Of a stretch of DNA of 64,000 bases, positions 45,587 through 64,000 are shown piece after piece. Each line of letters opens with the position of its first letter. Positions within the stretch are counted from its first letter, which is position 1. The DNA is from Scytolyngbya sp. HA4215-MV1. GTDB taxonomy: Bacteria > Cyanobacteriota > Cyanobacteriia > Leptolyngbyales > Leptolyngbyaceae. Where the stretch lies: contig JAHHIA010000001.1 in NCBI GenBank assembly GCA_019359045.1, forward strand, positions 558,001 through 622,000. Reading direction: 5' to 3'. The notes beneath the pieces are model-generated. The model did not search any database. It saw only the letters and a list, made by a program, of their open reading frames with translations, and was not told the origin of the DNA. The position numbers and the translations under genes were made by a program.

Positions 45587-45855
45587 ATAGGTAACCCTAA
45601 TTAATTGTAAGAAAGGGATTTGGGGGCTGCGCCCCCAGGCAGGGGGCAAACCCCTCTCCACCCCCAAAACATCTTCAATTTAATTTAGCCCAGCTCCTTA
45701 CAACGCTAAATTCATACCCAAAATCAGCGACGCCGAATCAGGATGCAACTAAAGCCAAGGTTTTAATGCCATGGCTTAATCACTCATCGATCTCTGCACC
45801 ACCGCATACTTTCTACAGCCAGAACCCACAATTTCACAGAGAGCTACAAACAACC

Positions 45856-47442
45856 ATGGCTAAGCGCATTCTCTATAACGAAAATGCTCGACGGGCATTA
45901 GAGCGTGGAATGGACATTTTGGCAAAAGCAGTTGCCGTAACATTAGGTCCGAAAGGGCGCAATGTGGTTCTAGGGCAAGCAACAGGTCCACCTCTGATTG
46001 TGAATGATGGAGTCACAATCGCGCAGACCATTGAACTCGAAGATCCCATTGAAAATACCGGGGTTGCTTTAATTCGCCAAGCCGCATCCAAAACGAATGA
46101 TGTTGCTGGAGATGGCACAACCACTGCGATCGTGCTGGCTCATGCCCTGGTTAAAGAAGGGCTACGAAATGTTGTAGCAGGTGCCAATGCAATTTCACTC
46201 AGGCGCGGCATCGACAAAGCCACCATTTTGCTAGTAGAAAAAATTGCCGACCATGCTCGCCCGGTAGAGGGTTCTCAGGCAATTGCTCAAGTCGGAAGCA
46301 TTGCCGCTGGCAATAACGACGAAGTTGGGCAAATGATTGCTGAAGCCATGGCAAAGGTCGGCAAAGAAGGGGTCATTTCCCTGGAAGAAGGGAAGTCTAT
46401 CGAGACAGAACTCGAAATCACCGAGGGAATGCGCTTTGAAAAAGGATATGTTTCTCCCTACTTTGTGACAAACACTGAACGCATGGAAGCGTTGATGGAA
46501 GACCCTTACATCCTGGTAACCGATAAAAAGATTACCAATGTGCAAGACTTAATTCCGTTACTGGAGCAAGTGGTCAAGGCAGGCAAGCCGTTGGTACTCA
46601 TTGCAGAAGACGTTGAGCAAGAAGCACTGACCACGCTGGTGGTGAATCGGATTCGCAGTGTGCTCAATGTCGTCGCGGTTAAATCTCCTGGTTTTGGCGA
46701 TCGCCGCAAAGCCATGCTAGAAGACATTGCAATTTTGACAGGCGGAAAAGTGATTACAGAGGATGCAGGGTTACGGCTAGATACAGTCAAACTAGAGATG
46801 CTGGGCACAGCTCGTCGAGTGGTCGTCACCAAAGACGATACGACGATCGTGGCGACTGGCAATGAAATTGCTATCAGAGCCCGGTGTGAGCAAATCCGGC
46901 GGCAAATGGCAGAAACTGAGTCTGATTATGAACTGGAACAACTCCAAAAGCGGCTGGCAAAACTTTCCGGAGGGGTTGCCGTGATTAAGGTGGGTGCTGC
47001 CACTGAGACCGAAATGCAAGACCGTAAATTGCGGCTAGAAGACGCACTCAATGCAACCAGAGCCGCAGTCGCCGAAGGGATTGTCCCTGGCGGTGGCACC
47101 ACCTTCGCTCACCTGGCTCCTCAACTGGAGGCGTGGGCAATTCAAACGCTGAGTGGGGAAGAATTAATAGGAGCGATGATTGTGGTGCGATCGCTCGCTG
47201 CTCCCCTAAAGCGCATTGCCGAGAATGCTGGTCAAAACGGTGCTGTCATCGCTGAACGGGTGAAGGAAAAAGATTTCAATATCGGTTATGACGCGATTAC
47301 AGGTGAATTTGTGGATCTGTTTGTAGCAGGGATTGTTGATCCCGCTAAAGTGACCCGGTCAGCACTGCAAAATGCCGCTTCGATCGCGGGGATGATTCTC
47401 ACGACAGAATGTATCGTAGCAAACCAAGTAGACACTCAGTAG
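45856..47442 (+). CDS. groEL: 60-kDa chaperonin GroEL, stand-alone paralogue
   Basis: 528 residues from ATG 45856 ([18 protein letters not shown]); the frame is open 90 bp upstream without conservation. ATP-site [38 protein letters not shown] and [14 protein letters not shown]. It ends ...[12 protein letters not shown] and lacks the Gly-Gly-Met tail. No groES is upstream and no CIRCE element was seen, so this is likely the monocistronic GroEL2-type protein of cyanobacteria. Confidence 0.96.
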
Positions 47443-49519: not shown

Positions 49520-50542
49520 ATGCAATTTGAAGATTTTTGGTACGTCGTGGCGCTAAGCCAACAGTTACGCCCCAACACTGCCTTGGCACGATCGCTCCTA
49601 GGCGAATGGTTGGTAATTTTTCGCGGTAAAAATGGACAGCCCGTAGCTTTGCGCGATCGCTGTTTGCATCGCAATAGCCGACTTTCACCAGGGCAAGTGT
49701 GTCAGGGGACACTACGGTGTCCCTATCATGGTTGGGTCTATGACCAGACCGGACAAGTGATTGCAGTCCCGTCAGCGGGAGAAGAGTCGCAACCGCACCC
49801 GTCACGACAAGCTAAACAGTATACGACCATGGAGCAAGATGGGTATGTCTATGTCCGGTTGGCAGAAACACCCAGCGAAATCTTGGTGCCCTTTACCATG
49901 CCCCACTACCAGGAATCCGGCTGGGAAACTGTGCGGGTAATCAATCGATTTCGCAATTCCGTCATTAATTGTGCGGAAAACTTTATTGATGTTCCCCACA
50001 CGGCTTTTGTACATCCGGGACTATTTCGCACCGCACAGCAACAAAAACTAGAGATGACAGTCGAACGATCGAACGGTTCTGTTACAGTGGAGTATCACCA
50101 TGAAACCAGCAATTTGGGCTGGTTTGGTCGCTTTTTAAATCGGCAGGGGACTGAGATTCAACACACAGATCGTTTCTATATGCCGAATGTGACCTGTGTT
50201 GAGTATTGTTTGGGACGCAATCGGCATTTGTTCATTACCAGCCAATCCATTCCTGAAACCGAAAACTCAACGCTGGTTTACACCGACGTGACCTATCGCT
50301 ACGGCATCTGGAACCCATTAGCGCGTCCGTTAGTCTGGTGGACGGCTCAGCAGATTATTCGGCAGGATGTCAAAATTTTAGGCATTCAGCGTGAAACGAT
50401 CGCCAAATACGGCACCCAATTTTCCAACACGCCTGCGGACACGATTCACGTTTTTGTCGAATCGATTCAAGCCGCGATCGAGCGGGGAGAAGATCCTCGC
50501 CAGCTCCCCCAAAAGTCGGTTAAGATTACGTTTTGGGTTTGA
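49520..50542 (+). CDS. Rieske non-heme iron oxygenase
   Basis: 340 residues. Rieske [2Fe-2S] ligands CLHRNSRL and CPYHGWVYD (~46-75). Mononuclear iron site in NCAENFIDVPHTAFVHP (~152-168). The fold is that of PaO/vanillate-demethylase-type oxygenases. First of four tightly spaced plus-strand genes ending at 53428. Electron donor could be the ferredoxin at 60162. Confidence 0.92.
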   Translation: MQFEDFWYVVALSQQLRPNTALARSLLGEWLVIFRGKNGQPVALRDRCLHRNSRLSPGQVCQGTLRCPYHGWVYDQTGQVIAVPSAGEESQPHPSRQAKQYTTMEQDGYVYVRLAETPSEILVPFTMPHYQESGWETVRVINRFRNSVINCAENFIDVPHTAFVHPGLFRTAQQQKLEMTVERSNGSVTVEYHHETSNLGWFGRFLNRQGTEIQHTDRFYMPNVTCVEYCLGRNRHLFITSQSIPETENSTLVYTDVTYRYGIWNPLARPLVWWTAQQIIRQDVKILGIQRETIAKYGTQFSNTPADTIHVFVESIQAAIERGEDPRQLPQKSVKITFWV

Positions 50543-50556
50543 GTTGAAGTCTTGCC

Positions 50557-51303
50557 ATGCAAACCTTTGCCCAGTTTCCCGTCTTTGCAGCATTCCTTGG
50601 ATTGCTTGCCTGGACGATTACAACGCAGGCAGGGCGCACCCAACTGCAATCCAAAAGTCGTGCAGATTGGTGGCTCGATAGTGCCGGATTGCTAATTCAA
50701 GGAATCGCGATTCCTGCCTTTCAGGTTTTCCTGATCGATCAGGTCTATCGTCCTTGGCTGTCCATCCCTCCAGGCTGTTTAACGCTATCTCCGATCGTCA
50801 CGTTTTTGGTGAGTTTTGTGCTGGTTGATTATTTGTATTATTGGAATCATCGTCTGTTGCATCGCGAAGGGCTATGGCAAGTCCACCAGGTTCACCATAC
50901 TGTGACTCAAATGGATGTATTGGGCACATCGCGCAATACACTTTGGACGAGTTTTTTAATTGTTTATGGGTGGGTGCATCCGCTATTGATATATGTGTTA
51001 GCAGATCCCACCGCTTATTTATGGGGAGTGAGTCTGACGGCTGGCTTGGATTTGTGGCGACATAGCCAAGCCATGATTCCTGTCGAAAGCTGGCTGCACC
51101 GTTGCCTTTCGCCCTGGTTGATTCTGCCGCAGGATCATGCATGGCATCATTCCAGCCAGGTGCCTCATTGCAACTATGGTGCCAATTTCAAGCTTTGGGA
51201 TAGACTGCATCGCACCTATGATGGAAGAGACCAGTTGCCCGCCGCGATCGGAATTGCTACACCATTCTCCTTAATGCAAAAGTTGTTATTTCCTTTTCCA
51301 TGA
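50557..51303 (+). CDS. Sterol desaturase / fatty acid hydroxylase family protein
   Basis: 248 residues, about five membrane segments. Diiron histidine motifs HRLLHREG, HQVHHTVTQ and HAWHHSSQVPHCNYG. Acts on an alkyl chain or terpenoid in the membrane. 14 bp after the Rieske gene; its stop overlaps the next start (51300-51303). Confidence 0.92.
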   Translation: MQTFAQFPVFAAFLGLLAWTITTQAGRTQLQSKSRADWWLDSAGLLIQGIAIPAFQVFLIDQVYRPWLSIPPGCLTLSPIVTFLVSFVLVDYLYYWNHRLLHREGLWQVHQVHHTVTQMDVLGTSRNTLWTSFLIVYGWVHPLLIYVLADPTAYLWGVSLTAGLDLWRHSQAMIPVESWLHRCLSPWLILPQDHAWHHSSQVPHCNYGANFKLWDRLHRTYDGRDQLPAAIGIATPFSLMQKLLFPFP

Positions 51304-51920
51304 CCGTTCTTAGTACCTTTTTTTTATTTTTCCCAGCGATCGTGTTGTTGATGACTGGAGCCGCGCTGGTGTACTTTGCCCACGTCCCCAGTGTTCTGAG
51401 TGGGGGCGCTATCATGTTTTCACTGTATGGGTTGCCTGTATTAGTTTATCGATTGCATCAATGGATCTATCCAGTGCAGGAAGGTATTAGTTATCTGCGT
51501 CAAAAAAGATATAGTCCTTGGTGGAGCAGTCACCAAATCCAGGTCATCTACATTGCCATTCCAGCCTTGGAAGCAATCCTCCGACTAATTCCGGGGGTAT
51601 TCTCCATCTGGTTGCGGCTTTGGGGCGCTCGAATTGGACGCAATGTTTACTGGACCCCTGGTTTGGAAATTGCCGATCGTGGTTTTTTAGACATTGGCGA
51701 TCGGGTTGTAATCGGACATCGAGTCGGCATTTATCCCCATGTAATCAAACCCCGCAGACAAGATTTAATGCTGTATGTCAAAACTGTCAAAATTGGTAAT
51801 GATGTCTTTCTGGGAGCCGGATCGCGGCTTGCCCCCGGTGTCGTGATTCAGGCGGGTAGCTACCTGCCGATCGAAACCGATCTCTATCCCAATCAGCAGG
51901 TGAAATCGTGCGTGGGCTAA
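51300..51920 (+). CDS. Left-handed beta-helix acyltransferase-like membrane protein
   Basis: 206 residues. N-terminal membrane segments (FFLFFPAIVLLMTGAALVYF; SGGAIMFSLYGLPVLV), then hexapeptide-repeat strands (GARIGRNVYW, LDIGDRVVIGHRVGIYP, VKIGNDVFLGAGSRLAPG). The His in GHRVGI could be catalytic. Overlaps the downstream GH3 gene by 13 bp. Confidence 0.82.
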   Translation: MTVLSTFFLFFPAIVLLMTGAALVYFAHVPSVLSGGAIMFSLYGLPVLVYRLHQWIYPVQEGISYLRQKRYSPWWSSHQIQVIYIAIPALEAILRLIPGVFSIWLRLWGARIGRNVYWTPGLEIADRGFLDIGDRVVIGHRVGIYPHVIKPRRQDLMLYVKTVKIGNDVFLGAGSRLAPGVVIQAGSYLPIETDLYPNQQVKSCVG

Positions 51921-53428
51921 TTCAACTTTTTGGGCAACTGCTCACACCTGCGGCCCGTCGATTTCACCAAGCCTTGGCTGCCCCTGAACTAGCGCAAAGA
52001 AGGGTGCATCAGGCAATCTGCGATCGCCTGGTGATGAGTGAATATGGCAAAGCGTTGGGAATTCGATCGAGGGCAGATTGGCAACAGCTGCCAATTGTCA
52101 GCTATGACGAGTTGGAACCCTGGATTTTACGGGCAGGTTTGACGCCCGAACCCATTCTGTTTTGCGAGAAGACATCGGGCAGTGGTGGTGCAGTCAAACG
52201 GATTCCCTACACTCGATCGCTGCGGCGATCATTCAATCACATGTTTTGCGTCTGGGCGCACGACTTGATCCAAAATGGACCCCGCTTTTCCACCGGAGTG
52301 CTCTATGCCTGCATTTCTCCCCAACTCTCGACGATCGATGGGAGCGAGAAACCAGGACTACAAGACGACTCAGATTACTTGGACGCATGGCTGCGGTGGT
52401 TGCTCCGTCCCTTTCTGGTCATGCCCAAAGGATTGCCGCAGCTACGCGATGCCCAGTTATTCCAACATCAGCTTTGTCTGGCACTTGTGCAAGCCGAACG
52501 GCTAGAAACGATTTCTATCTGGAGTCCCAGTTTTTTACAGGTGCATTTAAATTATATTCAAGACCATCGATCTCGCTTACAGCAAGAATTGCAGCATCGC
52601 ATCTCGCCCAATCGGTTGCAATGCCTGATTGAACCAGACATTGTTTGGACCCAACTCTGGCCCCACCTGAAGCTGATTTCCTGTTGGGACAGTGCTCAGG
52701 CAGCAGATCAGGCAGATGGACTGCGATCGCAGTTTCCTGAAGTGTTGGTGCAGGGCAAAGGCTTACTCGCAACAGAAGCGCCGATCACAATTCCGCTCAT
52801 CGCTGCTCAGGGCTACGTGCCCGTACTGGATGAGGTGTTTTTGGAGTTTGAAGACGATGCGGGATGTCTACATGGGCTGCACGAATTAAATTTAGCACAA
52901 TCCTACAACCTGATTCTGTCGCAAAAGGGGGGATTGTACCGTTATCGTCTGGGCGATCGCGTCCGTGTCACGCATGGGTATCTTAACACCCCCTGCTTAG
53001 CATTCTTGGGGCGCAGCCCTGCCGTTAGTGATTTGGTAGGCGAGAAATTGCACGCAGGATTTGTGCAGCAAGTTCTCAATCACTTGAATTTGTCAGCGAC
53101 GCATTTCCAAAGTCTGGTGCCCGTTGCTCATCCGCCCCACTATGTGTTGCTTTTGGATCAGGCAACCGAAACGGCAGACGAGATCGCGCACCAACTAGAC
53201 CAGGAACTCTCGCAGTCGCATCACTATCATTGTGCCAGGTTGCTCGGTCAACTGACGCCGCCACAGGTGTTAATTGGTCACCAAATTCCGGAAAGATTGA
53301 CTCTGCATCGGGTTCAAGCAGGCAGTGTCTGGGGGGGCATTAAGCATTCCACCCTAGCGACCTCACCGATCGAAGCGACACTTTTGCAGGAGTTGCAAGC
53401 GCTTTCTACACTTGGAAAAAGGGATTAG
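51908..53428 (+). CDS. GH3-family acyl-adenylating / amide synthetase
   Basis: 506 residues, GTG start. Adenylation motif KTSGSGGAVKRIPYT (~87-101), and C-terminal GLYRYRLGDRVRVTHG and VGEKLHAGFVQQVL. GH3 enzymes adenylate a carboxylic acid and conjugate it, usually with an amino acid. Last gene of the plus-strand operon; its stop region overlaps the convergent Rieske gene by 4 bp. Confidence 0.88.
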   Translation: MRGLIQLFGQLLTPAARRFHQALAAPELAQRRVHQAICDRLVMSEYGKALGIRSRADWQQLPIVSYDELEPWILRAGLTPEPILFCEKTSGSGGAVKRIPYTRSLRRSFNHMFCVWAHDLIQNGPRFSTGVLYACISPQLSTIDGSEKPGLQDDSDYLDAWLRWLLRPFLVMPKGLPQLRDAQLFQHQLCLALVQAERLETISIWSPSFLQVHLNYIQDHRSRLQQELQHRISPNRLQCLIEPDIVWTQLWPHLKLISCWDSAQAADQADGLRSQFPEVLVQGKGLLATEAPITIPLIAAQGYVPVLDEVFLEFEDDAGCLHGLHELNLAQSYNLILSQKGGLYRYRLGDRVRVTHGYLNTPCLAFLGRSPAVSDLVGEKLHAGFVQQVLNHLNLSATHFQSLVPVAHPPHYVLLLDQATETADEIAHQLDQELSQSHHYHCARLLGQLTPPQVLIGHQIPERLTLHRVQAGSVWGGIKHSTLATSPIEATLLQELQALSTLGKRD

Positions 53429-54444
53429 TCAATCAATGATTCTTTGGGCTGGTGCAGGTGCGACCACCGAGACACTTCCAATCGGTTGACATACGCCATA
53501 TATTGAGCCAGGGGCGCATCAATATCGAGCAGCACCTTGGGATTGAACTGAATATGGTCGTAAATTTTGCCATCTTCGTCTTTGAGCAGGTAGTACGCCC
53601 AGCGCGTGCAGAGCAGCAAAAAATGATTGATCAACCCGCCAACAAAGCCCTGGCGCTTTTTCGTCACATAAATCGGTTGGATGCGAGTTCTACCAGGCGC
53701 AACCGGGGTGTAGGCGAAAATCATGTGCAGCGGAGGCAACAATCGCACATTTTTCATCATGGTCAGTAAACCCATACAGCCGTGGGCATACCGCATTGAA
53801 TACTCATAAGTAGATCCTAAAAGGCGCTGTCCCAACCGTTCTCGCCAGGTGGTCTGGGGGAATTGTCCTTGCATGGTGAAGTCCATTTGCGTGCCACGTG
53901 CATTCTGGTGCAGAAATAAATTCATTTTGATATCGAGATGATGAATCGTTTTCAAATGTTGGGCATCAATGCCATTCATCATACAAATGTGGTGATGACA
54001 ACTGCGTTCAAAAGCGGTGTCAGAGTGAGCTACGATCGCGGTTCCCTGCAACTCGTCAAATTCCGCAACCCCTTCTGGGGCATCTGCCTCAGGATAGACC
54101 CAAATGTAGCCATATTTTTCTTCTGTAGCGTAAGCTTGCAGTTTAGCTTTGGCAGGAATCTCCGATTGACAGGGAATATTTTGACAACGCCCCGTTGCAT
54201 CAAACGCCCAGTGGTGAAAAGCACAGCGAATCCAGTTGCCTTCTACCTGCCCCAGCCCTAAATCGGTGCCGAGATGGGGACAGTAGGCATCCAGCGCCCG
54301 AGATCGTCCATCGGCTCCCCGAAACACCACGATTTGCTGCCCACAAATCTTGAGGGACTTGACCTCACCTTGACGCAGGGCATGGCTGGTGCAGGCAATA
54401 TACCAACCCTTGGCAATCACAGACCAGTTGTTGAAGAGTGGCAT
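53425..54444 (-). CDS. Rieske non-heme iron oxygenase
   Basis: 339 residues. Rieske ligands CPHLGTDLG and CAFHHWAFD (~58-87); iron site NGIDAQHLKTIHHLD (~153-167). More similar to the Rieske protein at 62731 (shared INAIDAHHFNTVHHL-type site) than to that at 49520. Last gene of the minus-strand operon; its start overlaps the amidohydrolase end by 28 bp. Confidence 0.92.
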   Translation of the reverse strand: MPLFNNWSVIAKGWYIACTSHALRQGEVKSLKICGQQIVVFRGADGRSRALDAYCPHLGTDLGLGQVEGNWIRCAFHHWAFDATGRCQNIPCQSEIPAKAKLQAYATEEKYGYIWVYPEADAPEGVAEFDELQGTAIVAHSDTAFERSCHHHICMMNGIDAQHLKTIHHLDIKMNLFLHQNARGTQMDFTMQGQFPQTTWRERLGQRLLGSTYEYSMRYAHGCMGLLTMMKNVRLLPPLHMIFAYTPVAPGRTRIQPIYVTKKRQGFVGGLINHFLLLCTRWAYYLLKDEDGKIYDHIQFNPKVLLDIDAPLAQYMAYVNRLEVSRWSHLHQPKESLID

Positions 54445-56591
54445 GACTGATAGTTCCGTAATCTTTCTTGTCTTTGACGAATATCATCTGGATATTTGCC
54501 TATCACAACGCTCAGGAACATTCGACCCAAGCAATAGGAAGCGCGCCAGGAAAAGATCGCATCTTGACGATCGATATGGCTACGCTCAAACAAAAGATGC
54601 CCCAACAAGCCCCATAGCTGAGTGAGCGGTAAGGCAAGCAGCCACCCAAAGGTGTGGAATTTCCAGGAGATGAAGAGCAGGCTGTAAAAGAACAGAATGC
54701 CCACGATGTGAAGCGCAATATTCATCGGATGTTGGTGCTTAAGCACAAAAATATCCCAATAGTCCGTAAAAGGATGATCCAAAATTTGATCCGTGACGCG
54801 GTTTCTCAAGGATCGCGGCTCGATCGGGGTTAGCGGGCTGACTGCACTGGATTGAATCCGCTGTCTGTCAACCGCACCCACCGAATCACTCGGAAACAGG
54901 ACCGTTCCTAAGCGCTCTCGCCCCAACCGTTCACTGATTTGCCCGCAATGAACGACTCGCACTCCGTTAATATAAACGGCTTGCACAATGGCTTCTGAAC
55001 CGCGCTTCACCATCCGAGGTTCCCCATCCAGCAGGGGATCGGAGATTTCCACTTGAGGGCTAATGGGTTGATGGAGAGCAGTAGGGTTCAAGAGAACAAG
55101 ATCGGCTTTAGCACCGATTTTCAGCACACCTGTATTGAGCCGAAACCAGTGGGCGGGTTCTGCCGTGATGCGGTGAATCGCGGCTTCAGGAGAGAGAAAT
55201 CGGGTGGTAACGGCTTGTTTGAGGAGAGATAAAGCGCCATCGTAGTAGCCCAGATTGCGGACATGCGCCCCAGCATCAGTGAACCCGGGCAGAATAGCGG
55301 GATGCCGCATCAGTGCTAAACGCGGTGCCAGCCGATCGTTGGCCCCCGTTGCCACCCAGCGCAGATCGGTGTCGTAATCTCGCAAGGCTTGCATGAAGCA
55401 ATCCACAGCATCCTGTTGCTGTCGATGGGCAATTTCAGCAAAACTCCAGCCTTGCCAGCTGGTGTCAGGGCAGCGGACCACCACCATCAGCTCCAGTTGC
55501 CGATGAAAGGACTTGCGCCAGTTGCTGAGCCATTCTTGACGAAACTGGTGGCGAAAATTCTGCGACCGCCATAGCGATTGCCGTTCCTGACGCGACTCGC
55601 AGCTATTGAGCTGTGCCCCGGTAGAAAATTCTTCAAACAGAGGAGTCAATGGCCCATCTGAATAAATCGTGAAGGGTTCGGTCAGGGTTTGAAAGCGCAC
55701 ATTGCCCCCCAGAAGACAGTTCCACCCAGTCAGCAGGGGGGAAAAGAGCCGCCACAGACGACGATCGTGCACAGCATCCAGGGCAGAAAGCACGGTCAGC
55801 CGCAAAGGACGGCGTCCAATACCCATTCCCAAGCGGAGAATGTCGAGAAAAGAACGCGATCGCTGGAGATTAGGAGTAACTTGAAACACGCGATCCCGCT
55901 GACGACAGAGATCCGCTAGCATGGCATATTCCGAGAATTCGGCATGTTGGGATGGAATGGTGCAGCCGCGCCAGGTACCACTCATGCGATGCCAGGGAAA
56001 CATATCGATCGAGATGCCTGTGAATCCTGCTGCCAAGGCATCAGCGGCAATTTGCTGCATGGTTTGACGATCGGATTGAGAAGGCGGAACGGTTAAACTC
56101 CGCTCTAATCCCATGACATGGGCACGTAAGGCACTGTGCCCCAGCAGGGGAGCTACATTGGCACCCAACGGCAATTGCTGTAAATGTTCCAGATACTCAG
56201 CGGGGATACGCCAGGAAACGGACTGTTGCAACCATTTTTCAATCAAGCGATGGGACAGAGTTTCCACCCGCTGAAAAATATCTGCCAGCATAGCAGGGTC
56301 TCCGATCGCCACCGACAGGCTGCAATTGCCAATTACCACACTGGTTACCCCATGACGCACTGATTCACTCAATCCGGGGGCAATCTCTAGCTCTAAATCG
56401 TAATGAGTATGAATGTCTATAAATCCAGGGGTTATCCACAAACCGGCAGCATCCACCACTTCACGCGCCCCAACCGATAGGCACCGATCCATCGCGACAA
56501 TTCGACCCGCTTGCACCCCAATCTCTCCCCGCACCGGAGCAGACCCCAATCCATCAAAAATCAAGCCATTTTGAATCAGCAAGTCCAGCAT
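54417..56591 (-). CDS. Amidohydrolase (D-aminoacylase type) fused to Mpo1/DUF962-like membrane domain
   Basis: 724 residues from ATG 56591, which has AAGGGAAGG upstream. N-terminal amidohydrolase: FIDIHTHYDLELE (~55-67), LGHSALRAHVMG, later FTDAGAHVRNLG and KADLVLLNP. C-terminal ~120 residues (~600-724): HPFTDYWDIFVLKHQHPMN, three hydrophobic segments and GHLLFERSHIDR, resembling Mpo1/YGL010w, a lipid alpha-dioxygenase family. The fusion suggests hydrolysis of an amide or ester plus chain oxidation at the membrane. Confidence 0.8.
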   Translation of the reverse strand: MLDLLIQNGLIFDGLGSAPVRGEIGVQAGRIVAMDRCLSVGAREVVDAAGLWITPGFIDIHTHYDLELEIAPGLSESVRHGVTSVVIGNCSLSVAIGDPAMLADIFQRVETLSHRLIEKWLQQSVSWRIPAEYLEHLQQLPLGANVAPLLGHSALRAHVMGLERSLTVPPSQSDRQTMQQIAADALAAGFTGISIDMFPWHRMSGTWRGCTIPSQHAEFSEYAMLADLCRQRDRVFQVTPNLQRSRSFLDILRLGMGIGRRPLRLTVLSALDAVHDRRLWRLFSPLLTGWNCLLGGNVRFQTLTEPFTIYSDGPLTPLFEEFSTGAQLNSCESRQERQSLWRSQNFRHQFRQEWLSNWRKSFHRQLELMVVVRCPDTSWQGWSFAEIAHRQQQDAVDCFMQALRDYDTDLRWVATGANDRLAPRLALMRHPAILPGFTDAGAHVRNLGYYDGALSLLKQAVTTRFLSPEAAIHRITAEPAHWFRLNTGVLKIGAKADLVLLNPTALHQPISPQVEISDPLLDGEPRMVKRGSEAIVQAVYINGVRVVHCGQISERLGRERLGTVLFPSDSVGAVDRQRIQSSAVSPLTPIEPRSLRNRVTDQILDHPFTDYWDIFVLKHQHPMNIALHIVGILFFYSLLFISWKFHTFGWLLALPLTQLWGLLGHLLFERSHIDRQDAIFSWRASYCLGRMFLSVVIGKYPDDIRQRQERLRNYQSCHSSTTGL

Positions 56592-56604
56592 GATGTGCCT
56601 TCCC

Positions 56605-57918
56605 TTAACCACTTCGACCCTGGTGCACCGTTTTGATCCACTGCAATTGGGGCGATTTCACGCATAAGCGAAGGGTCGTCACGATCATCACAGGAATCCA
56701 ATGCACCATGTAGCAAGCACCTTGCAGCGTCGCCGCCAGCAAGCGCCAACCTCGTAGTTCTTGAAACTGGGCAAGCCCACCGAGAAAAGCGGCAGTGAGA
56801 AGCAGGCTGAGGAGCAGTTGCAGCGGCAGCAGCACGGGGCGATGGTGAGCGTAGAGTGTCCAAAACAGGTCAGGCACCAGTCCGATCGGCAACAAAAATT
56901 GCAGCAGAAAAAACAGCAGCAAATCCATTTCCTTCAGCCAACCCAACGTCAGAATTTTGGGAAAGTAATCCAAGTAACGCTGGTAGCCCCCCTCTGCCCA
57001 ACGGCAACGCTGATGCCAGAGTTGTTGCCAGGTCGTGACGCCTTCTTCGTGAACCGATGGATCGGCAATAAATTCAATTTCAGTCCCCGCCAGATAAAGT
57101 TTGAAGGTGAGATCTAAATCATCCGTGACAGTGTCTTCGCTCCAACCGTTGCAGGTTTCCAGACATCGCCGCCGCACCAACATGCCATTTCCCCGGAGTT
57201 CTGTCATCCCGGCAACGGCAATTCGATGGGTTTGGAGAAAGCAATCACAGTCCATTTCCATTTGTTGCCAACGCGTCAAGTAATGCGTCTCTGCATTGGC
57301 GATCGTTTTCCGCACCTGCACTGCCCCAACCGTCGGTTTCTGAAACAACGGCACTGTTCGCCGCAGGAAATCAGCGGGCAGATAGGCATCGGCATCACAA
57401 ATCAGCACAATTTCTCCCTGTGTATAGGGCAAAACTGCATTGAGGGCGCCCGATTTCCCCCCTCGCGATTCTCGTCGGTATACCTGGAGTGCTGGAAATT
57501 GGGTTTGCAACTGCTGCAAGCATGTCGGGGTGGCATCGGTGCTACCATCGTTCACAATCCAAATCTCCAGGTGAGCCGTGGGATAGTCCAGATGAAAGAG
57601 GCTGTGCACCAGATTGGGCAGTACCGCACACTCATTTTTGGCAGGCACCAGAATGGAAACGCTCGGTAAATTGACCGAGGCTTCCCCGGTCACAACAGTC
57701 GGCTTTGCCAACAGCAGCCGCACCGTTTGGATCGCCAGGACGATCGTCAAGCCTGCTATGAACCCCTGTGTTTCTGGCAGCCAATGCAGCAAACTCACCA
57801 TTCCCCAGACCAGTAGCAACACCAGCGTTGCCTGCACCCGACGATCTCGACCGTGCTTAACCTGCGGGTCTTGATGAACCCGGTCACACTTCCCTGGTTG
57901 ATCCAACCGTTTTTCCAC
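56605..57918 (-). CDS. GT2-family membrane glycosyltransferase
   Basis: 437 residues, GTG start. Two N-terminal and four C-terminal membrane segments. GT-A motifs: LVPAKNECAVLPNL, VNDGSTDATP, CDADAYLP (DxD), TVTDDLDLT and QRCRWAEGG (QxxRW), the pattern of processive or NodC/cellulose-synthase-like enzymes. Five bp after the SnoaL-like gene and 13 bp before the amidohydrolase ATG. Confidence 0.92.
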   Translation of the reverse strand: MEKRLDQPGKCDRVHQDPQVKHGRDRRVQATLVLLLVWGMVSLLHWLPETQGFIAGLTIVLAIQTVRLLLAKPTVVTGEASVNLPSVSILVPAKNECAVLPNLVHSLFHLDYPTAHLEIWIVNDGSTDATPTCLQQLQTQFPALQVYRRESRGGKSGALNAVLPYTQGEIVLICDADAYLPADFLRRTVPLFQKPTVGAVQVRKTIANAETHYLTRWQQMEMDCDCFLQTHRIAVAGMTELRGNGMLVRRRCLETCNGWSEDTVTDDLDLTFKLYLAGTEIEFIADPSVHEEGVTTWQQLWHQRCRWAEGGYQRYLDYFPKILTLGWLKEMDLLLFFLLQFLLPIGLVPDLFWTLYAHHRPVLLPLQLLLSLLLTAAFLGGLAQFQELRGWRLLAATLQGACYMVHWIPVMIVTTLRLCVKSPQLQWIKTVHQGRSG

Positions 57919-57923
57919 AAAAT

Positions 57924-58583
57924 TTACGAGGTCTGCTCAGAGGATGATTTGGGTTGGCGACGCAGTAGCAGTGTGATTACTGCCCCCAACAGTACACCCC
58001 CGATGCCCGCCGCGATCGCCGTGAGGCGTCCGACTTTCTGAGCCGCACTCAATACCGGATTATTCAGCAGGTTAGAAGAAAAATGGAGGGATTGGAGGGT
58101 CCATTTAGTCTGGAATTTTTGTAGCACTGCTGTCCAGCGCATGGGCATGACGGCGATATTACCATCAGTAAAAGAAAAAGTGGCGATCGCGTCTCCATAA
58201 GCGACCTCGGTTTCGGGAGAAAGAAACGTTCGGGTCGAATCAACTTTGACATCCATTGCAATGTTTTTGATCGGTCCTGTCAACTGCTGATTCCAGTATT
58301 TCTCAAACTCCTGCACGCTATGGAAAACGTGGTTATCAACTGTTGTTAGGGTAAAGGCTGGATGTAAATAGGGGGCAATTTTTGAAAAATCGCGGGTATT
58401 GATGGCTTGCACCGCCATTTCTCGCGTCTGGGCGATCGCCGATTGATCTTGGGGACTGACCTGCGCCAAAACGCTCTGGGGCATCCCCCAACTCGCCAGT
58501 ATCAAAATTGTGCCCCATAGGAGTGGAGCATTCCTAACTTGGCAATGAAGCAACTGCCACCTCCTGCGGTATTTTGCCGCCAT
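57924..58583 (-). CDS. SnoaL/NTF2-like secreted or membrane-anchored protein
   Basis: 219 residues. Signal peptide (LLWGTILILASWGMPQSVLAQ), an NTF2-like domain (AINTRDFSKIAPYLHPAFTL, VQEFEKYWNQQL), and a C-terminal membrane anchor (AIAAGIGGVLLGAVITLLL) followed by RRQPK. The domain may be a small-ligand binder or isomerase. First gene of the minus-strand operon. Confidence 0.8.
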   Translation of the reverse strand: MAAKYRRRWQLLHCQVRNAPLLWGTILILASWGMPQSVLAQVSPQDQSAIAQTREMAVQAINTRDFSKIAPYLHPAFTLTTVDNHVFHSVQEFEKYWNQQLTGPIKNIAMDVKVDSTRTFLSPETEVAYGDAIATFSFTDGNIAVMPMRWTAVLQKFQTKWTLQSLHFSSNLLNNPVLSAAQKVGRLTAIAAGIGGVLLGAVITLLLRRQPKSSSEQTS

Positions 58584-58767
58584 TTTAGAATACTCCCAGA
58601 GACAAGATTGGCTTCTGTTAGATTACTTAGGAGCGCGCCTTCGCGAATCTCGATCGCCTTAAGCAGATTACTTTGCCGATCCCCGCTGCTCAATCCAGTC
58701 TTTTATCAATCTTCACACCACGCTACACTGACTGAGGATTTATTTAAATAAGGAAACATTCAATCGG

Positions 58768-59967
58768 ATGGACTTCAAGCTGCTGTCCAGTCAACTGTTG
58801 ATTCAACTCCTGTTGGGATTCGTCTCTGTCTTCTTAGTTGAACTGGTACGAGATTTTTACCACCTGGCAGGGCACTATTGGCAACCCTTACAGCGTTTCC
58901 ATCTCCTGCATCACAAAGCCTACCGTCCCGATTTGACGATGGCAAGTTTAGAGACGTATAAAAAAGCACAGCGCTACAACGATGTGCCCGAATCGATCCT
59001 GATGCTGGTCGTCGCGGCGCTCGTTGCAGGGCTACTCCAAAGCTATGGCATGGCGTTCGGTTGTCTCTACTCCCTGAGCTTTTTAATTCCCGCGATCGCC
59101 CGTTCTCAGGGATTGTTGCTGCAAAGCGACTTCACCCATCAACCCGGGGCTTTGACGGAAATTCCCTCGACCTGGACTGTAAATCGTGCCTACCACTGGC
59201 GACACCATTTTGATCAAGCCGATGCCTACTTTAGCGGTCACTATACTGTGGTAGACAAAGTGCTGGGAACCAGCCTGGCTTTGAAGGACAAAGTGGTTGC
59301 CATTACAGGTGCCTCTGGAGCCATGGGACAGGCATTGATCGCAGAATTATCCCTTCAGGGAGCCAAAGTGGTTGCCTTGACCACCCATCCCGATGCAGGA
59401 TTTCAGCCAGAGATTGAGGTTTTGGGTTGGCGGTTAGGGGCAGAGGCAGATCTGGCAAACCGTTTAAAAAAGGTCGATATTCTCATCATCAATCATGGGG
59501 TAAATGTCTATGACGATCGCTCCTTTTTAGCGATGCAGCAATCCTATGAGGTGAACACATTTTCGACCTTGAGACTGGCTGAATTATTTTTGGGAACCGT
59601 CACAGGCTTTTCTCATCCAGCCACAAAAGAACTCTGGATTAACACGTCGGAAGCGGAAGTCAATCCCGCCTTCAGCCCCCTGTATGAATTGTCGAAAAGA
59701 ACTTTGGGCGATTTGATTACGCTGCGGCGCCTGAAGGCACCTTGCATCATCCGCAAGTTGGTGTTGGGTCCGTTCAAAAGTCAGCTCAACCCCTATGGGA
59801 TCATGTCAGCCCGATGGATCGCGTGGGCGATCGTCGCTCTGGCAAAGCGCGATGTGCGGAATATCATTGTCACCATTAATCCGATCACTTATTTCACTTT
59901 CCCTATTAAGGAATTCTTTCAGTCCCTCTACTTCCGCCTCTGCTCATCTAGCAAGCAGGAGGCTTAG
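58768..59967 (+). CDS. Bifunctional sterol desaturase / short-chain dehydrogenase
   Basis: 399 residues. N-terminal half: membrane segments and diiron His motifs (FYHLAGHYW, FHLLHHKAYRPD, HWRHHFDQADA). C-terminal half: SDR domain with VVAITGASGAMGQALI, NHGVNVYDD, and a YELSK active-site motif. It follows the known cyanobacterial fusion layout. Divergent from the SnoaL-like gene; single gene. Confidence 0.9.
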   Translation: MDFKLLSSQLLIQLLLGFVSVFLVELVRDFYHLAGHYWQPLQRFHLLHHKAYRPDLTMASLETYKKAQRYNDVPESILMLVVAALVAGLLQSYGMAFGCLYSLSFLIPAIARSQGLLLQSDFTHQPGALTEIPSTWTVNRAYHWRHHFDQADAYFSGHYTVVDKVLGTSLALKDKVVAITGASGAMGQALIAELSLQGAKVVALTTHPDAGFQPEIEVLGWRLGAEADLANRLKKVDILIINHGVNVYDDRSFLAMQQSYEVNTFSTLRLAELFLGTVTGFSHPATKELWINTSEAEVNPAFSPLYELSKRTLGDLITLRRLKAPCIIRKLVLGPFKSQLNPYGIMSARWIAWAIVALAKRDVRNIIVTINPITYFTFPIKEFFQSLYFRLCSSSKQEA

Positions 59968-60020
59968 AATCGGGTCACTCAGTTCCCCAAACCGGATTTC
60001 CTGAACATTGCTGATCCTGG

Positions 60021-60078
60021 GTATGAATTGGGAGTTGTATGAATTGAAACTTCGTGCCAATCCATACGGCTATTCAGA
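60021..60078 (-). repeat. Interspersed palindromic repeat, copy 3
   Basis: On the minus strand CTGAATAGCCGTATGGATTG then GCACGAAGTTTCAATTCATAC; arms GTATGGATTG and CAATTCATAC form a stem around GCACGAAGTTT. Same family as 42901 and 45541. Confidence 0.72.
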
Positions 60079-60161
60079 CCCCCTTTCCTGAGATGTCGTC
60101 CCCACGATTCTGGTCATACCAGAACGGAAATCCGGTTGCTCGACCAACGTGCTTGCAATCT

Positions 60162-60452
60162 TCATTCTGTCCATCTGCGGATTTTAATATCCCCAGTCAG
60201 GATTAATTGGCAGGCTAATCGAGCCTTTGCCTGGTTGGGAGCCAGCAGGTCAAGCATTTCCCGCTCATCTGGCTTCGGTGCTGGAATGTCTCCCTCGACT
60301 TCGACCAGACAAGTCCCACAAATTCCCGTTCGACAACCAAATAATACGGGAGAATTTTGCATCGTCAGATGTTCAGACAAATTTTGCTGCCCGTCTAACC
60401 AGAGCGCAGGATAGGGAGTCCCCGGAAAAGAAACGGTACAAAGCGTAGACAT
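60162..60452 (-). CDS. [2Fe-2S] plant-type ferredoxin
   Basis: 96 residues from ATG 60452, one base after the diiron gene stop. Cluster ligands GCRTGICGTCLVEVEG (C-x4-C-x2-C) and the fourth Cys in LACQLILTGD. Probable electron donor to the adjacent diiron and Rieske oxygenases. Confidence 0.92.
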   Translation of the reverse strand: MSTLCTVSFPGTPYPALWLDGQQNLSEHLTMQNSPVLFGCRTGICGTCLVEVEGDIPAPKPDEREMLDLLAPNQAKARLACQLILTGDIKIRRWTE

Positions 60453-60453
60453 T

Positions 60454-61644
60454 TCATTGCGCCTCATCCATTTTTCGCTCAAAAATCGACCAGGCCCGCT
60501 GTTGAATTGCCAAATATCGGGCGATCGAATTGGCTGCCATAAGCGACATCTCACGATTACTCTTCCATAAATAACTGAGTTTTTCGACATACACTTGATA
60601 GGACGCCAGGGCTTCTCGATGAGTTTGATAACTGCGGTGTAACCCCTCTGACTCTTCGGTAAAGCAGCGCCGCATCATGGCTTTGGCATCTCGATCTCCC
60701 ATGCCAAAGATGGACGATCGCAAGACTTGATAAATTAGGGGATACAGTGCCGGCTCATACCAGAAAATGCCATTGATCGCGATCGAGAAATGGGCATGAT
60801 CGCGCTGACATCCCCGCAGCCCCAAATTGGCAACCCATGCCTCAAAAGGCGTCGGGGGTGCCAGACAAGCCGTCACCTCATGGGACAAAATTGTAGAACT
60901 GTTAAAGTGAAAGCTTTCATCCAAAAAGTGATAGTAGGAAATTTGGGCAGGAATCGCCGCTGCCTCTGGAGTGGGATGTTTCTGATAGAACTGACTGAGT
61001 TTGTGCTGCACCAATTTACCGTTCAGTGTCCGCACTCCCCGCACCGTAAAGTATTGGCAAGCTAGAAATGGATTAGTCGCCGAAATTAAGCCAAAATATT
61101 GCAATTGCAGCGCTTTCCACCAGGTTTTGAGGGCATTGGTGTCGGCATAGACCATGGTCTCGGTAAAGGGACCCCGCATGGGATAGGTAAAAATGAGGTG
61201 TCCAAACAGAGCCTGTTCAGTCTGGCGAGAAATTGTCCGAAAGGCATGAATATGGGCACGTTCCTGAGACGACTCCAGATCCAACATGTCGCAAACCAAG
61301 CGAAAGCCCTCATGGGCATAGAGTCCAGCTGCACTGGTCTGATTGAAAAAGATAGTGGCAATTTCAGCAGAAATAATTTGGGAGTAATAAGCAACCCAAT
61401 AAAGCTGGTTCAAAATTACGCGCTGGGTGGGGCTTGCCTGATCCCATAAAGGAGTGCCATAGAGCAAAGAAAACTCTTCTGGATTCCAGTAATCATCCTG
61501 ACAATCTTTGTAACGAAAATTTTGCGCTGCTTGATCCATCAAGGCGGTGTGATCCTGCTGCTGGTTGCGCGTGTAGTTGATCTGAAGTTTGCGATAGGTG
61601 GTTGTGTGGTCTAAAAGGGGACTGCTGACTGAATTCATAAACAC
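60454..61644 (-). CDS. AurF-like diiron oxygenase
   Basis: 396 residues, helical. Candidate metal ligands: Glu in IISAEIATIFF, ExxxxxE/H in LESSQERAHIHAF, HFLDESFHFNSS and CQRDHAHFSI. The arrangement resembles the p-aminobenzoate N-oxygenase (AurF) / ferritin-like oxygenase group. Directly upstream of ferredoxin (1-bp gap). Confidence 0.75.
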   Translation of the reverse strand: MFMNSVSSPLLDHTTTYRKLQINYTRNQQQDHTALMDQAAQNFRYKDCQDDYWNPEEFSLLYGTPLWDQASPTQRVILNQLYWVAYYSQIISAEIATIFFNQTSAAGLYAHEGFRLVCDMLDLESSQERAHIHAFRTISRQTEQALFGHLIFTYPMRGPFTETMVYADTNALKTWWKALQLQYFGLISATNPFLACQYFTVRGVRTLNGKLVQHKLSQFYQKHPTPEAAAIPAQISYYHFLDESFHFNSSTILSHEVTACLAPPTPFEAWVANLGLRGCQRDHAHFSIAINGIFWYEPALYPLIYQVLRSSIFGMGDRDAKAMMRRCFTEESEGLHRSYQTHREALASYQVYVEKLSYLWKSNREMSLMAANSIARYLAIQQRAWSIFERKMDEAQ

Positions 61645-61760
61645 CTACCCAATACCGAGTGGTCTGTCAAGTCGGTTTTGAGGGACTGAAAACGCTCAAA
61701 ACAGCTCAAAAATGTTTTTGTAGAGTTGAGTGCCCCCTCAAATCTATCCTGACGGATGAT

Positions 61761-61794
61761 TAGTCGGGTGCTGCTATTCAGCAGCACCCGACTA
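61761..61794. terminator. Perfect 15-bp hairpin overlapping the stop of the ferritin-like gene
   Basis: tagtcgggtgctgct (61761-61775), loop attc, agcagcacccgacta (61780-61794). It overlaps the TAG at 61792-61794. No T-run follows on the minus strand, so it may be an mRNA stabiliser or attenuator rather than a classic terminator. The core TGCTGAATAGCAG is shared with the palindromic repeat family. Confidence 0.6.
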
Positions 61795-62721
61795 GGCAAA
61801 GCGAGGCGATACACATAAACGGGGTGGAAATGGCGTAAAGGCGCCTTGTGCTTCTAACCATTGCCCGATCGCCCCCGCCGATTCTCCTTGCATCAACGCT
61901 CGCAACAGTTGCAACCGCTTGCCACTGTGAGCTTCAGCATCCAACTCAGTCAAAATCTGAATTTTTTGCGATCGCGAGAGATGCCCCATCACTTGCTCGA
62001 TCGCAGCCAGAACACTTTGCGGTCCAACCTGTACCATCCCTAAGAAGTTCGCCAGCACTTCTTGAATGGCTGATTGACTGGCTGCCGAAACAGATCGTTG
62101 ATGAAACAATAGATTGCCAGTGCTGTGATGACGGGCTTCGGCTTGCAAAAAACTGGTGAAGAGATGAGCCAGGGTGCGATCGTCACAGCTTTTCGCCAAT
62201 CGGCGATAGTGACTCAACCCCCATCCCTCTAGCACCACCTGAATCACAAACAGCAGCACAGTTTTATCATCCCCCTCAACCACCTCTGCCAGTAACCGCA
62301 AAAAAGGCTGACTCTCAGCCGCCCGATCAGGGACTGAGACAAAGGGGCAGAGTTGGCTCAAGTGTGTCGTTTCATCTGCTGTAAACAGTCCGTAGAGCAT
62401 TCGCTCCTCTAGGGTCTCTGCTAGCAGCACCATTTTTGCCATATAGCCCACCCCAGCTTTTTCAATCCAATAGGCTTCTTCTAGCAAACTCTGATTTGCC
62501 AGCTTGAGGATCGCCAATTGGGCTGAATGACTGGCGGCTTGAAATACCTGAACCTGATGCAGATTAAAAAAAGCAGCATCCCAATAAATAGCGGGTAGGG
62601 TTCCATTCATTGCCCTCTGACTCTGAGTCTGCAAGGTTGCCGCCAGCACCCGACGCAGGCGATCGTCCCCATGCGTATGGGGTAAAGCCAATCCGGCAAC
62701 ACGATGATGGTCGAAACTCAT
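61792..62721 (-). CDS. Ferritin-like diiron protein
   Basis: 309 residues, all helical. Diiron ligands fit LLEEAYWIEKAG, ADETTHLSQL (ExxH), VLEGWGLSHY and QAEARHHSTG (ExxH). Such proteins are oxygenases or oxidases on lipid-like or amino substrates. Between the Rieske gene (9 bp) and the AurF-like gene, same strand. Confidence 0.82.
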   Translation of the reverse strand: MSFDHHRVAGLALPHTHGDDRLRRVLAATLQTQSQRAMNGTLPAIYWDAAFFNLHQVQVFQAASHSAQLAILKLANQSLLEEAYWIEKAGVGYMAKMVLLAETLEERMLYGLFTADETTHLSQLCPFVSVPDRAAESQPFLRLLAEVVEGDDKTVLLFVIQVVLEGWGLSHYRRLAKSCDDRTLAHLFTSFLQAEARHHSTGNLLFHQRSVSAASQSAIQEVLANFLGMVQVGPQSVLAAIEQVMGHLSRSQKIQILTELDAEAHSGKRLQLLRALMQGESAGAIGQWLEAQGAFTPFPPRLCVSPRFA

Positions 62722-62730
62722 GGCACGTCT

Positions 62731-63768
62731 CTAAGTCGGTAAATTTCTTTCAGGAATAATAACTGTCTCCCATGTTCCCCAATGCACAGCGGTTTGCTGA
62801 TTCACCTGCTGAATCAAGTCAAGAATCGATTGATCCGCTTTGATGGGCGTTTTCAGATCGAACTGAATGGTTTGAAACACCTGCGTATCACCCTTGGCAA
62901 AGTAATTCCCCACCTGTTGCGTCAACCACAGTAGCCCGCGATTAATGACCCACCCCAGACAACCCGATCGCTGGCGAGTCAGCAGAATCGTCTGCCCCTC
63001 GGTTTTGCCGCCTTCTGCCAATCGTAGGGCAAACAGGATGTAAAAGTGTAGAAAATCCGGTCCCAGGGTAACGGTGCCCGTACTGCCATACCAGTAGCAT
63101 AGACTGTAGGTCACTTCTTGACGATAGAGGGGACGAATCAGCCGAATCAGCCAGGCATCGTCCCCGCCCCGGGTAGTATTGCGAAAGGTGACGGCATGAG
63201 CGTTGAGCGCTTGCCGCTCAAATACAATCTCCAGAGGCAGATGGTGCACTGTATTGAAATGGTGAGCATCGATCGCATTGATCAACAACACATTCGGATG
63301 ACAGTTTTTGACAAATCGGGCGCCGAAAGCCGTGTCACACTCCACCTGCTCCAGTTCGGGTGCAAACGGAAGTGGCGCAGTGGAACCCGGATCTGTCTGA
63401 CCCACCCAAACCCAAATCATCCCGTACTTTTCTGCCGTGTGCCAGGTTCTAACGCGCACAGGCAAGGCTCTCCCTAAGGAGGGCACCTCTACACAATTTC
63501 CCCCAGCATCATATTTCCAGTTGTGGAAAAAGCAACGAATGCCATCGCCTTCCACCTTTCCCTCTGCTAAGTGAGCCCCCATATGTGGACAGTAGGCATC
63601 CATTGCCACCACTTGCCCACTCGCACCTCGATAAATTGCCAAGTTTCTGCCCAACAGAGAAATTGCCTTCACCCTACCGACTGCCAAATCTTTGCAGGGC
63701 AACGCCCAATACCATCCCTGCACAAACTGAGTGGGATGGTTAAAGGTCGAATCAGCACTAGCAGGCAT
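62731..63768 (-). CDS. Rieske non-heme iron oxygenase
   Basis: 345 residues from ATG 63768 (MPASADSTFN); an upstream in-frame start at 63825 adds 19 residues of low likelihood. Rieske ligands CPHMGAHLA and CFFHNWKYD; iron site NAIDAHHFNTVHHLP. Probably paralogous to 53425. Five bp downstream of another partial gene on the same strand. Confidence 0.9.
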   Translation of the reverse strand: MPASADSTFNHPTQFVQGWYWALPCKDLAVGRVKAISLLGRNLAIYRGASGQVVAMDAYCPHMGAHLAEGKVEGDGIRCFFHNWKYDAGGNCVEVPSLGRALPVRVRTWHTAEKYGMIWVWVGQTDPGSTAPLPFAPELEQVECDTAFGARFVKNCHPNVLLINAIDAHHFNTVHHLPLEIVFERQALNAHAVTFRNTTRGGDDAWLIRLIRPLYRQEVTYSLCYWYGSTGTVTLGPDFLHFYILFALRLAEGGKTEGQTILLTRQRSGCLGWVINRGLLWLTQQVGNYFAKGDTQVFQTIQFDLKTPIKADQSILDLIQQVNQQTAVHWGTWETVIIPERNLPT

Positions 63769-63773
63769 AGAAA

Positions 63774-64000
63774 CTATATAACAACGGAGTCTGTTACAAA
63801 TTCTAGCGGCGAACCTGCTTGCCACATTCGGTGTCCAGCTCGAGTTAAATTCTGATCATGAATTTCTGTCAAACAAACGAGTTCGTCACCCTGCCGATAG
63901 CCGGGATTCCTCGCCTCAAAAAACTGAACGTGGGGGTTTGTCTGCCGTCCAGTTGGAATTTCAATCCATCCCTGCCGCAGCACTTGGGGATTGGAAAAGC
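63774..64000 (-). CDS. C-terminus of an unidentified gene, cut by window edge
   Basis: The minus-strand frame is open to the window end and reads FSNPQVLRQGWIEIPTGRQ, then FFEARNPGYRQGDELVCLTE and ends FVTDSVVI. I do not recognise the family. Its stop lies 6 bp before the Rieske ATG, so it is probably co-transcribed and belongs to the oxidative locus. Confidence 0.6.
   Translation of the reverse strand, partial: FSNPQVLRQGWIEIPTGRQTNPHVQFFEARNPGYRQGDELVCLTEIHDQNLTRAGHRMWQAGSPLEFVTDSVVI

Follow-up and report, generated by a model that had tools for sequence, protein, structure and literature searches.

The right end of a 64,000-nucleotide stretch of DNA from Scytolyngbya sp. HA4215-MV1 (contig JAHHIA010000001.1, positions 558,001 to 622,000; hereafter the window) carries a dense cluster of oxygenase and acyl-transfer genes, which is a complete member of an orphan class of clusters catalogued in 2021 around homologues of the halogenase CylC, and whose most likely product is an oxidised amino lipid. 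From left to right it comprises operon A on the forward strand, operon B on the reverse strand, a single forward gene for a desaturase/SDR fusion and operon C on the reverse strand (table 1). An earlier reading of the sequence alone had listed three Rieske oxygenases, a FA_hydroxylase protein, the SDR fusion, two diiron proteins, a ferredoxin, a GH3 enzyme, a beta-helix protein, a GT2 glycosyltransferase, a SnoaL-like protein and an amidohydrolase-Mpo1 fusion, all of which are indeed present and of full length. The same sequence-only reading had the locus running off the right edge: the cluster does cross that edge, but in the contig extended rightwards it stops at about 64514, 514 bp beyond the window, after one additional gene encoding a GNAT-fold protein, past which lie an OprB porin, two-component systems and a chloride channel. 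The overlapping packing then described has to be reduced, too, since the apparent overlaps of ferredoxin and Rieske3 vanish once their starts are re-assigned by comparison with relatives; that between ferredoxin and diiron1 is a start-codon artefact, the likely ferredoxin ATG following directly after the diiron1 stop.

Table 1. Operons and genes of the cluster, in window positions
Feature	Position	Strand	Basis or remark
Operon A: Rieske1, FA_hydroxylase, hexapeptide acyltransferase, GH3	49520-53428	+	
Operon B: SnoaL-like, GT2, amidohydrolase-Mpo1, Rieske2	58583-53425	-	
Operon C: GNAT, Rieske3, diiron2, diiron1, ferredoxin		-	
Rieske1, Rieske oxygenase with VanA_C domain	49520..50542	+	Pfam; nearest solved structures SxtDIOX/SxtT
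FA_hydroxylase family membrane diiron enzyme	50557..51303	+	Pfam; weak OlsE similarity (NCBIfam)
Hexapeptide (left-handed beta-helix) acyltransferase-like protein	51300..51920	+	Pfam Hexapep
GH3-like acyl-amido synthetase	51908..53428	+	Pfam GH3 N, M and C domains; three nucleotide-binding motifs
Rieske2, Rieske oxygenase	53425..54444	-	Pfam; nearest solved structure KshA
D-aminoacylase-like amidohydrolase fused to Mpo1-like domain, subtype-specific	54417..56612	-	Pfam
GT2 glycosyltransferase with membrane segments, subtype-specific	56605..57918	-	Pfam
SnoaL-like membrane protein, subtype-specific	57924..58583	-	Pfam
FA_hydroxylase/SDR fusion (desaturase/SDR)	58768..59967	+	PRK07424 family, 591 bits, above cut-off
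Plant-type 2Fe-2S ferredoxin	60162..60452	-	Listed open reading frame 60162-60590 (142 aa); likely start ATG 60452
diiron1, CylC-type dimetal-carboxylate halogenase homologue	60454..61644	-	QExxH and HxxDExxH; no Pfam match
diiron2, ferritin-like diiron oxygenase-like protein	61792..62721	-	Structure model; no Pfam match
Rieske3, Rieske oxygenase	62731..63768	-	Nearest solved structure KshA; open reading frame to 63825, likely start ATG 63768
GNAT-fold acyltransferase (P0010), first gene of operon C	63774..64514 (window part 63774..64000; L009:3774-4514)	-	Structure model

According to the survey by Eusebio et al. (2021; PMC8406957), clusters with CylC homologues fall into seven classes. In the commonest (n = 36), called 'Rieske-containing', two to four Rieske proteins are mostly accompanied by a sterol-desaturase-family protein, a carrier protein is lacking and the product is not known; a related 'PriA-containing' class occurs in Synechocystis, and one standard mining tool, CORASON, missed these clusters. 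The window has one CylC homologue, namely diiron1, together with three Rieske proteins and the FA_hydroxylase, while Pfam scans of the cluster gave no PP-binding domain; as in the survey, there are relatives in Nostocales and Oscillatoriales. Moreover, the locus of genome G074 (L127), in which GNAT, Rieske3, diiron2 and diiron1 are followed by a GGDEF/EAL protein and PriA, matches the PriA context of Synechocystis. Because both the Rieske-containing and the PriA-containing architectures are thus matched, the locus is a member of the catalogued class, and the earlier description of it as apparently undescribed has to be withdrawn. That reading also overlooked the membership of one diiron protein in the halogenase family. 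For a product of the class our literature search, covering open-licence papers and leaving room for reports elsewhere, gave only the 2021 catalogue. New here are the boundary, the removal of one gene, the whole-genome co-occurrence, an invariant Glu-to-Gln change in diiron1 (Gln213), the subtype with deacylase-Mpo1, GT2 and SnoaL, and the assignments of GH3 and GNAT, two enzymes that do not appear in the accessible text of the survey.

Scanning genome contigs with diiron1 gave 80 loci, 48 of which have 10 kb of flank on each side. Gene order turned out to be conserved in other cyanobacteria, as the sequence-only reading had proposed to check, and the homologues are not merely dispersed: the run GNAT-Rieske3-diiron2-diiron1-(Rieske2)-ferredoxin-Rieske1-FA-hydroxylase-hexapeptide-GH3 recurs in Nostocales, Oscillatoriales and Leptolyngbya, and Microseira wollei (L086) has every member except the SDR protein, collinear and within about 13.4 kb. 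Within 10 kb of diiron1 in the 48 full-flank loci we found ferredoxin in 47, diiron2 in 46, GNAT in 44, FA-hydroxylase in 42, hexapeptide in 39 and GH3 in 36, so that core genes are present in 75-100% of them; the three Rieske genes cross-match, and their counts are upper bounds. Four control genes from the window flanks occur in none of the same 48 relatives, which, set against the frequency of the core genes, indicates clustering beyond chance. The desaturase/SDR fusion, too, is found in 0 of 48; it had been counted as a member, and is a hitchhiker instead. Nor is the OprB porin beside the window cluster conserved among these relatives. Two subtypes can be distinguished, one with amidohydrolase and Mpo1, sometimes also GT2 and SnoaL, to which the window belongs, and the other lacking an amidohydrolase, in which Rieske2 separates diiron1 from ferredoxin. 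Rearranged clusters are found in contigs of metagenome-assembled genomes labelled Myxococcota, Halobacteriovorax, Gamma- and Alphaproteobacteria, Accumulibacter and Planctomycetota. Binning errors might account for these labels. The proteobacterial type (L117, L119, L120), however, keeps its own common architecture and forms a separate branch in the diiron1 tree; the SnoaL-like protein is also present in three proteobacterial relatives.

Whole genomes tell a similar story. Among 244 genomes of the phylum, strong matches to diiron1 (at least 53% identity) are present in 15, and strong matches to GH3 (at least 42%) in these 15 and no others, with both thresholds having been chosen after the lists were seen; roughly 6% of the genomes sampled from the phylum thus have the clusters, which are also found in other phyla. 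Such a coincidence would have p of about 3e-24 if genomes were independent, which they are not. The two genes lie within 30 kb on the same contig in 10 carriers, 0.95 and 2.9 Mb apart in two, and on separate contigs in three, and within genera g7 and g8 the difference between carriers and non-carriers concerns the two genes jointly. GNAT matches cover all 15 carriers, those of diiron2 comprise the 15 plus three genomes, and strong hexapeptide matches the 15 plus one; near-full-length amidohydrolase matches are confined to 7 carriers, G123 being counted among these by a partial match. For nine genes of the cluster the correlations of pairwise distances are 0.90-0.97, uncorrected for species phylogeny. 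GNAT also lies beside or near a GH3-like gene in seven genomes without this diiron1 clade (G197, G013, G050, G053, G060, G077 and G100), and GH3 plus GNAT therefore seems to be a module that can be separated from the oxygenases. A fatty-acid desaturase adjoins these pairs in G197 and G060, and radical-SAM enzymes do so in G077 and G100; a fatty-acid desaturase also adjoins GNAT in G074. GNAT and GH3-like pairs without a Rieske-type diiron1 were seen at loci L131, L132, L133, L134, L135, L136 and L137, some in small genomes outside the class of the window. A hexapeptide-diiron2-GNAT run (L138:9108-11509), a reduced version of the cluster, is present in G058, a genome without diiron1 and GH3.

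The GH3 protein has the motifs T89SGSGGAVK97, GLLATE290 and GLYRYRLGD350, with key positions conserved in 48 homologues. The bacterial GH3-like enzyme OlsH of the planctomycete Singulisphaera joins a fatty acid to ornithine with ATP, forming N-acyl-ornithine (PMC12493201), and Ser90 of the window protein sits where OlsH has its essential Ser115, a likeness drawn from the published description of OlsH. Both would be amide ligases with recognisable motifs I-III, possibly catalysing the same first step, whereas the window cluster has no alpha/beta-hydrolase of OlsI type and adds many oxygenases. The additional gene of operon C has no Pfam match; its product is a GNAT fold as judged from the AlphaFold model (pLDDT, the predicted local distance difference test, 90.7), for which the best Foldseek E value is 1.3e-6 and VIA Z reaches 12.5 (root-mean-square deviation 2.9, 156 aligned). 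Diiron2 models as a ferritin-like diiron four-helix bundle (VIA Z of 17.3 against a diiron enzyme, exceeding the background of helical bundles; Foldseek E 5.6e-3), with two invariant Glu/ExxH ligand sets (E87, E117, H120 and E165, E195, H198); these structural matches denote the general diiron fold, and the top rank of an aldehyde-deformylating oxygenase is no evidence of that activity, nor does a family's absence from the lists of matches count against it. All three Rieske proteins keep the ligands of the 2Fe-2S centre and of the mononuclear iron, those of Rieske1 (the Rieske Cys/His and Asp157/His160/His165) in 62 homologues; in the ferredoxin the four Cys are retained, as is the His cluster of the membrane hydroxylase (55 homologues). 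With metal ligands so conserved, these proteins look active. The amidohydrolase is nearest to N-acyl-D-amino-acid deacylases; its fusion with Mpo1 in the window and in proteobacterial relatives (L117:6397-8505) hints that the two act together, the genes being separate in Nostoc (L047:2571-4280, 5481-5894).

From gene content, synteny, co-occurrence and the assignments of folds and motifs, we infer the reactions, substrate and order of steps of this real and conserved pathway, which probably serves a single purpose. GH3 would adenylate a fatty acid from central metabolism and, in the manner of OlsH with ornithine, couple it to an amine or amino acid, while GNAT and the hexapeptide acyltransferase would attach further acyl groups. 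The ferredoxin would supply electrons to the membrane hydroxylase, the two ferritin-like diiron enzymes and the three Rieske oxygenases, which may functionalise C-H bonds in the acyl chain or the headgroup; the CylC-like diiron1 could halogenate or, given its Glu-to-Gln change, hydroxylate or desaturate. In the window subtype, GT2, the SnoaL-like protein and the deacylase-Mpo1 fusion would finish or edit the product. Such a product would be an oxidised amino lipid of N-acyl-amino-acid type, built without a polyketide, peptide or terpene scaffold enzyme, a reading to which we give a probability of about 0.4. It is suggested by the combination of GH3, GNAT, a second acyltransferase, a weakly OlsE-like hydroxylase, the fatty-acid desaturases adjoining the module in some relatives and the deacylase-like amidohydrolase; moreover, no fatty-acyl-AMP ligase (FAAL), acyl carrier protein (ACP), polyketide synthase (PKS), nonribosomal peptide synthetase or terpene synthase was seen among the identified cluster members. 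The sequence-only reading had proposed biosynthesis of a polyoxygenated, amidated or glycosylated hydrophobic product. Gene order, the joint distribution of diiron1 and GH3, and the kind of GH3 enzyme support a conserved biosynthetic unit that works on a hydrophobic and probably amidated substrate, whereas glycosylation would apply to a subtype at most, as GT2 lies within 10 kb in 5 of the 48 relatives.

Several points weigh against the amino lipid. GH3 and GNAT enzymes elsewhere take many non-lipid substrates, and the GNAT here is an acyltransferase by predicted fold. Similarity of the FA_hydroxylase to the OlsE family of NCBIfam (E 2e-14) is far under the family cut-off, the co-occurrence counts are uncorrected for shared ancestry with thresholds set post hoc, and amidohydrolase, Mpo1 and Rieske proteins are also typical of catabolism. 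In addition, the literature found has no product and no assayed enzyme for the class. The GH3/GNAT link gives a concrete product class to seek.

How far, then, can diiron1 be considered a halogenase? The protein is about 24-30% identical over its length to CylC-type proteins, retains ExxQExxH and HxxDExxH, and has QExxH, HxxDExxH and the helix-1 Glu in 78 of 78 homologues. Nine residues are reported to be essential for chlorination by NocO, including Glu252, 30 residues ahead of Asp282, and to be conserved in 241 further homologues (PMC12101540). Eight of these are kept by diiron1 and all 78 homologues, but the position of Glu252 is occupied by Gln213, again Gln in 78 of 78. In 10 aligned CylC-like proteins outside the clade the residue is Glu, with unchanged spacing to the Asp; diiron1 lacks this third-helix Glu, yet the motif pair QExxH/HxxDExxH used to call the family (PMC12871659) would still label it a halogenase. 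Given this replacement in all 78, halogenation is possible, but on less firm ground than one would conclude from the motif pair by itself. Diiron1 is also without an insertion that the aligned CylC-type proteins carry, and in the tree it groups with homologues from Rieske clusters and the PriA context, apart from CylC-type proteins. Searches of PDB sequences with diiron1 and diiron2 gave no match. Two genomes with the main cluster encode another CylC-like protein (L125:7484-8692 and L126:6964-8220), which shares about 32% identity with diiron1 and retains the Glu; its gene lies next to those for an ABC transporter ATPase and an FtsX permease.

The alternative that best withstands this evidence is that diiron1 works as a genuine dimetal halogenase on an acyl chain, free or amide-linked, with the pathway making a chlorinated or cryptically chlorinated lipid. 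Homology and the retained motif pair speak for it, as does the inclusion of this type among CylC homologues by Eusebio et al. (PMC8406957); but besides Gln213, the cluster has no carrier protein, whereas the substrates of CylC and NocO are ACP-bound chains, and the literature found contains no assayed member of the diiron1 clade. The contexts of CylC-type proteins that we checked show the difference: FAAL, ACP and large genes of PKS size at two loci and ACP at a third, against no FAAL, ACP or PKS partner in the window cluster. We regard halogenation as a serious possibility on which we would not count. That the GH3 plus GNAT module leads to a new class of highly oxidised bacterial amino lipids, with diiron1 re-tuned by the invariant Glu-to-Gln change to non-halogenating C-H oxidation of a carrier-free substrate, is a more specific proposal that we consider possible but less likely than not. 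These clusters hold the carrier-free branch of the dimetal-halogenase family, in which the difference at Gln213 offers a one-residue test of halogenation against other outcomes.

Degradation of an external hydrophobic compound appears improbable. Such pathways often include Rieske oxygenases, an amidohydrolase, an Mpo1-like domain and a porin nearby, but the bond-building GH3, GNAT and hexapeptide enzymes are core, the amidohydrolase is near the diiron1 anchor in less than half of the relatives and full-length in 7 of the 15 carriers, the porin is not conserved, and no gene for ring cleavage or beta-oxidation was identified in the cluster.

Oxidation of a hopanoid, sterol or other terpenoid is suggested by Rieske2 and Rieske3, which among solved structures are nearest to 3-ketosteroid 9-alpha-hydroxylase (KshA) and are weakly similar to 4-beta-methylsterol monooxygenase. 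Compared with Rieske enzymes of KshA/SdmA and VanA type, however, the window proteins share the intact residues of the 2Fe-2S and mononuclear iron sites but have moderate similarity; around the cluster no genes of sterol or aromatic pathways were identified, and it contains no terpene cyclase. Squalene-hopene cyclase is present in 7 of the 15 carriers and absent from 8, at least six of which are estimated to be at least 94% complete; hopanoids are therefore unlikely as required substrates, and terpenoids in general very improbable. As to unrelated oxidative genes lying side by side by chance, the desaturase/SDR gene truly is such a neighbour, but the conserved gene order and the identical genome distribution of diiron1 and GH3 refute this for the core, and its probability is negligible.

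Two further candidates were rejected. A saxitoxin-like alkaloid cluster was considered because of the structures nearest to Rieske1, but no amidinotransferase or other sxt-type gene is found among the identified members. A sphingolipid-like pathway was considered given Mpo1 in the window and PAP2 and SDR proteins in some relatives; such genes are scattered, and the Pfam scans made, which did not include a genome-wide search for it, gave no serine-palmitoyltransferase-like gene. Left of the cluster, a solitary gene for a Cpn60/TCP1-family protein of 558 aa lies at 45766-47442, flanked by an AbrB/DUF202 pair and an RRM protein.

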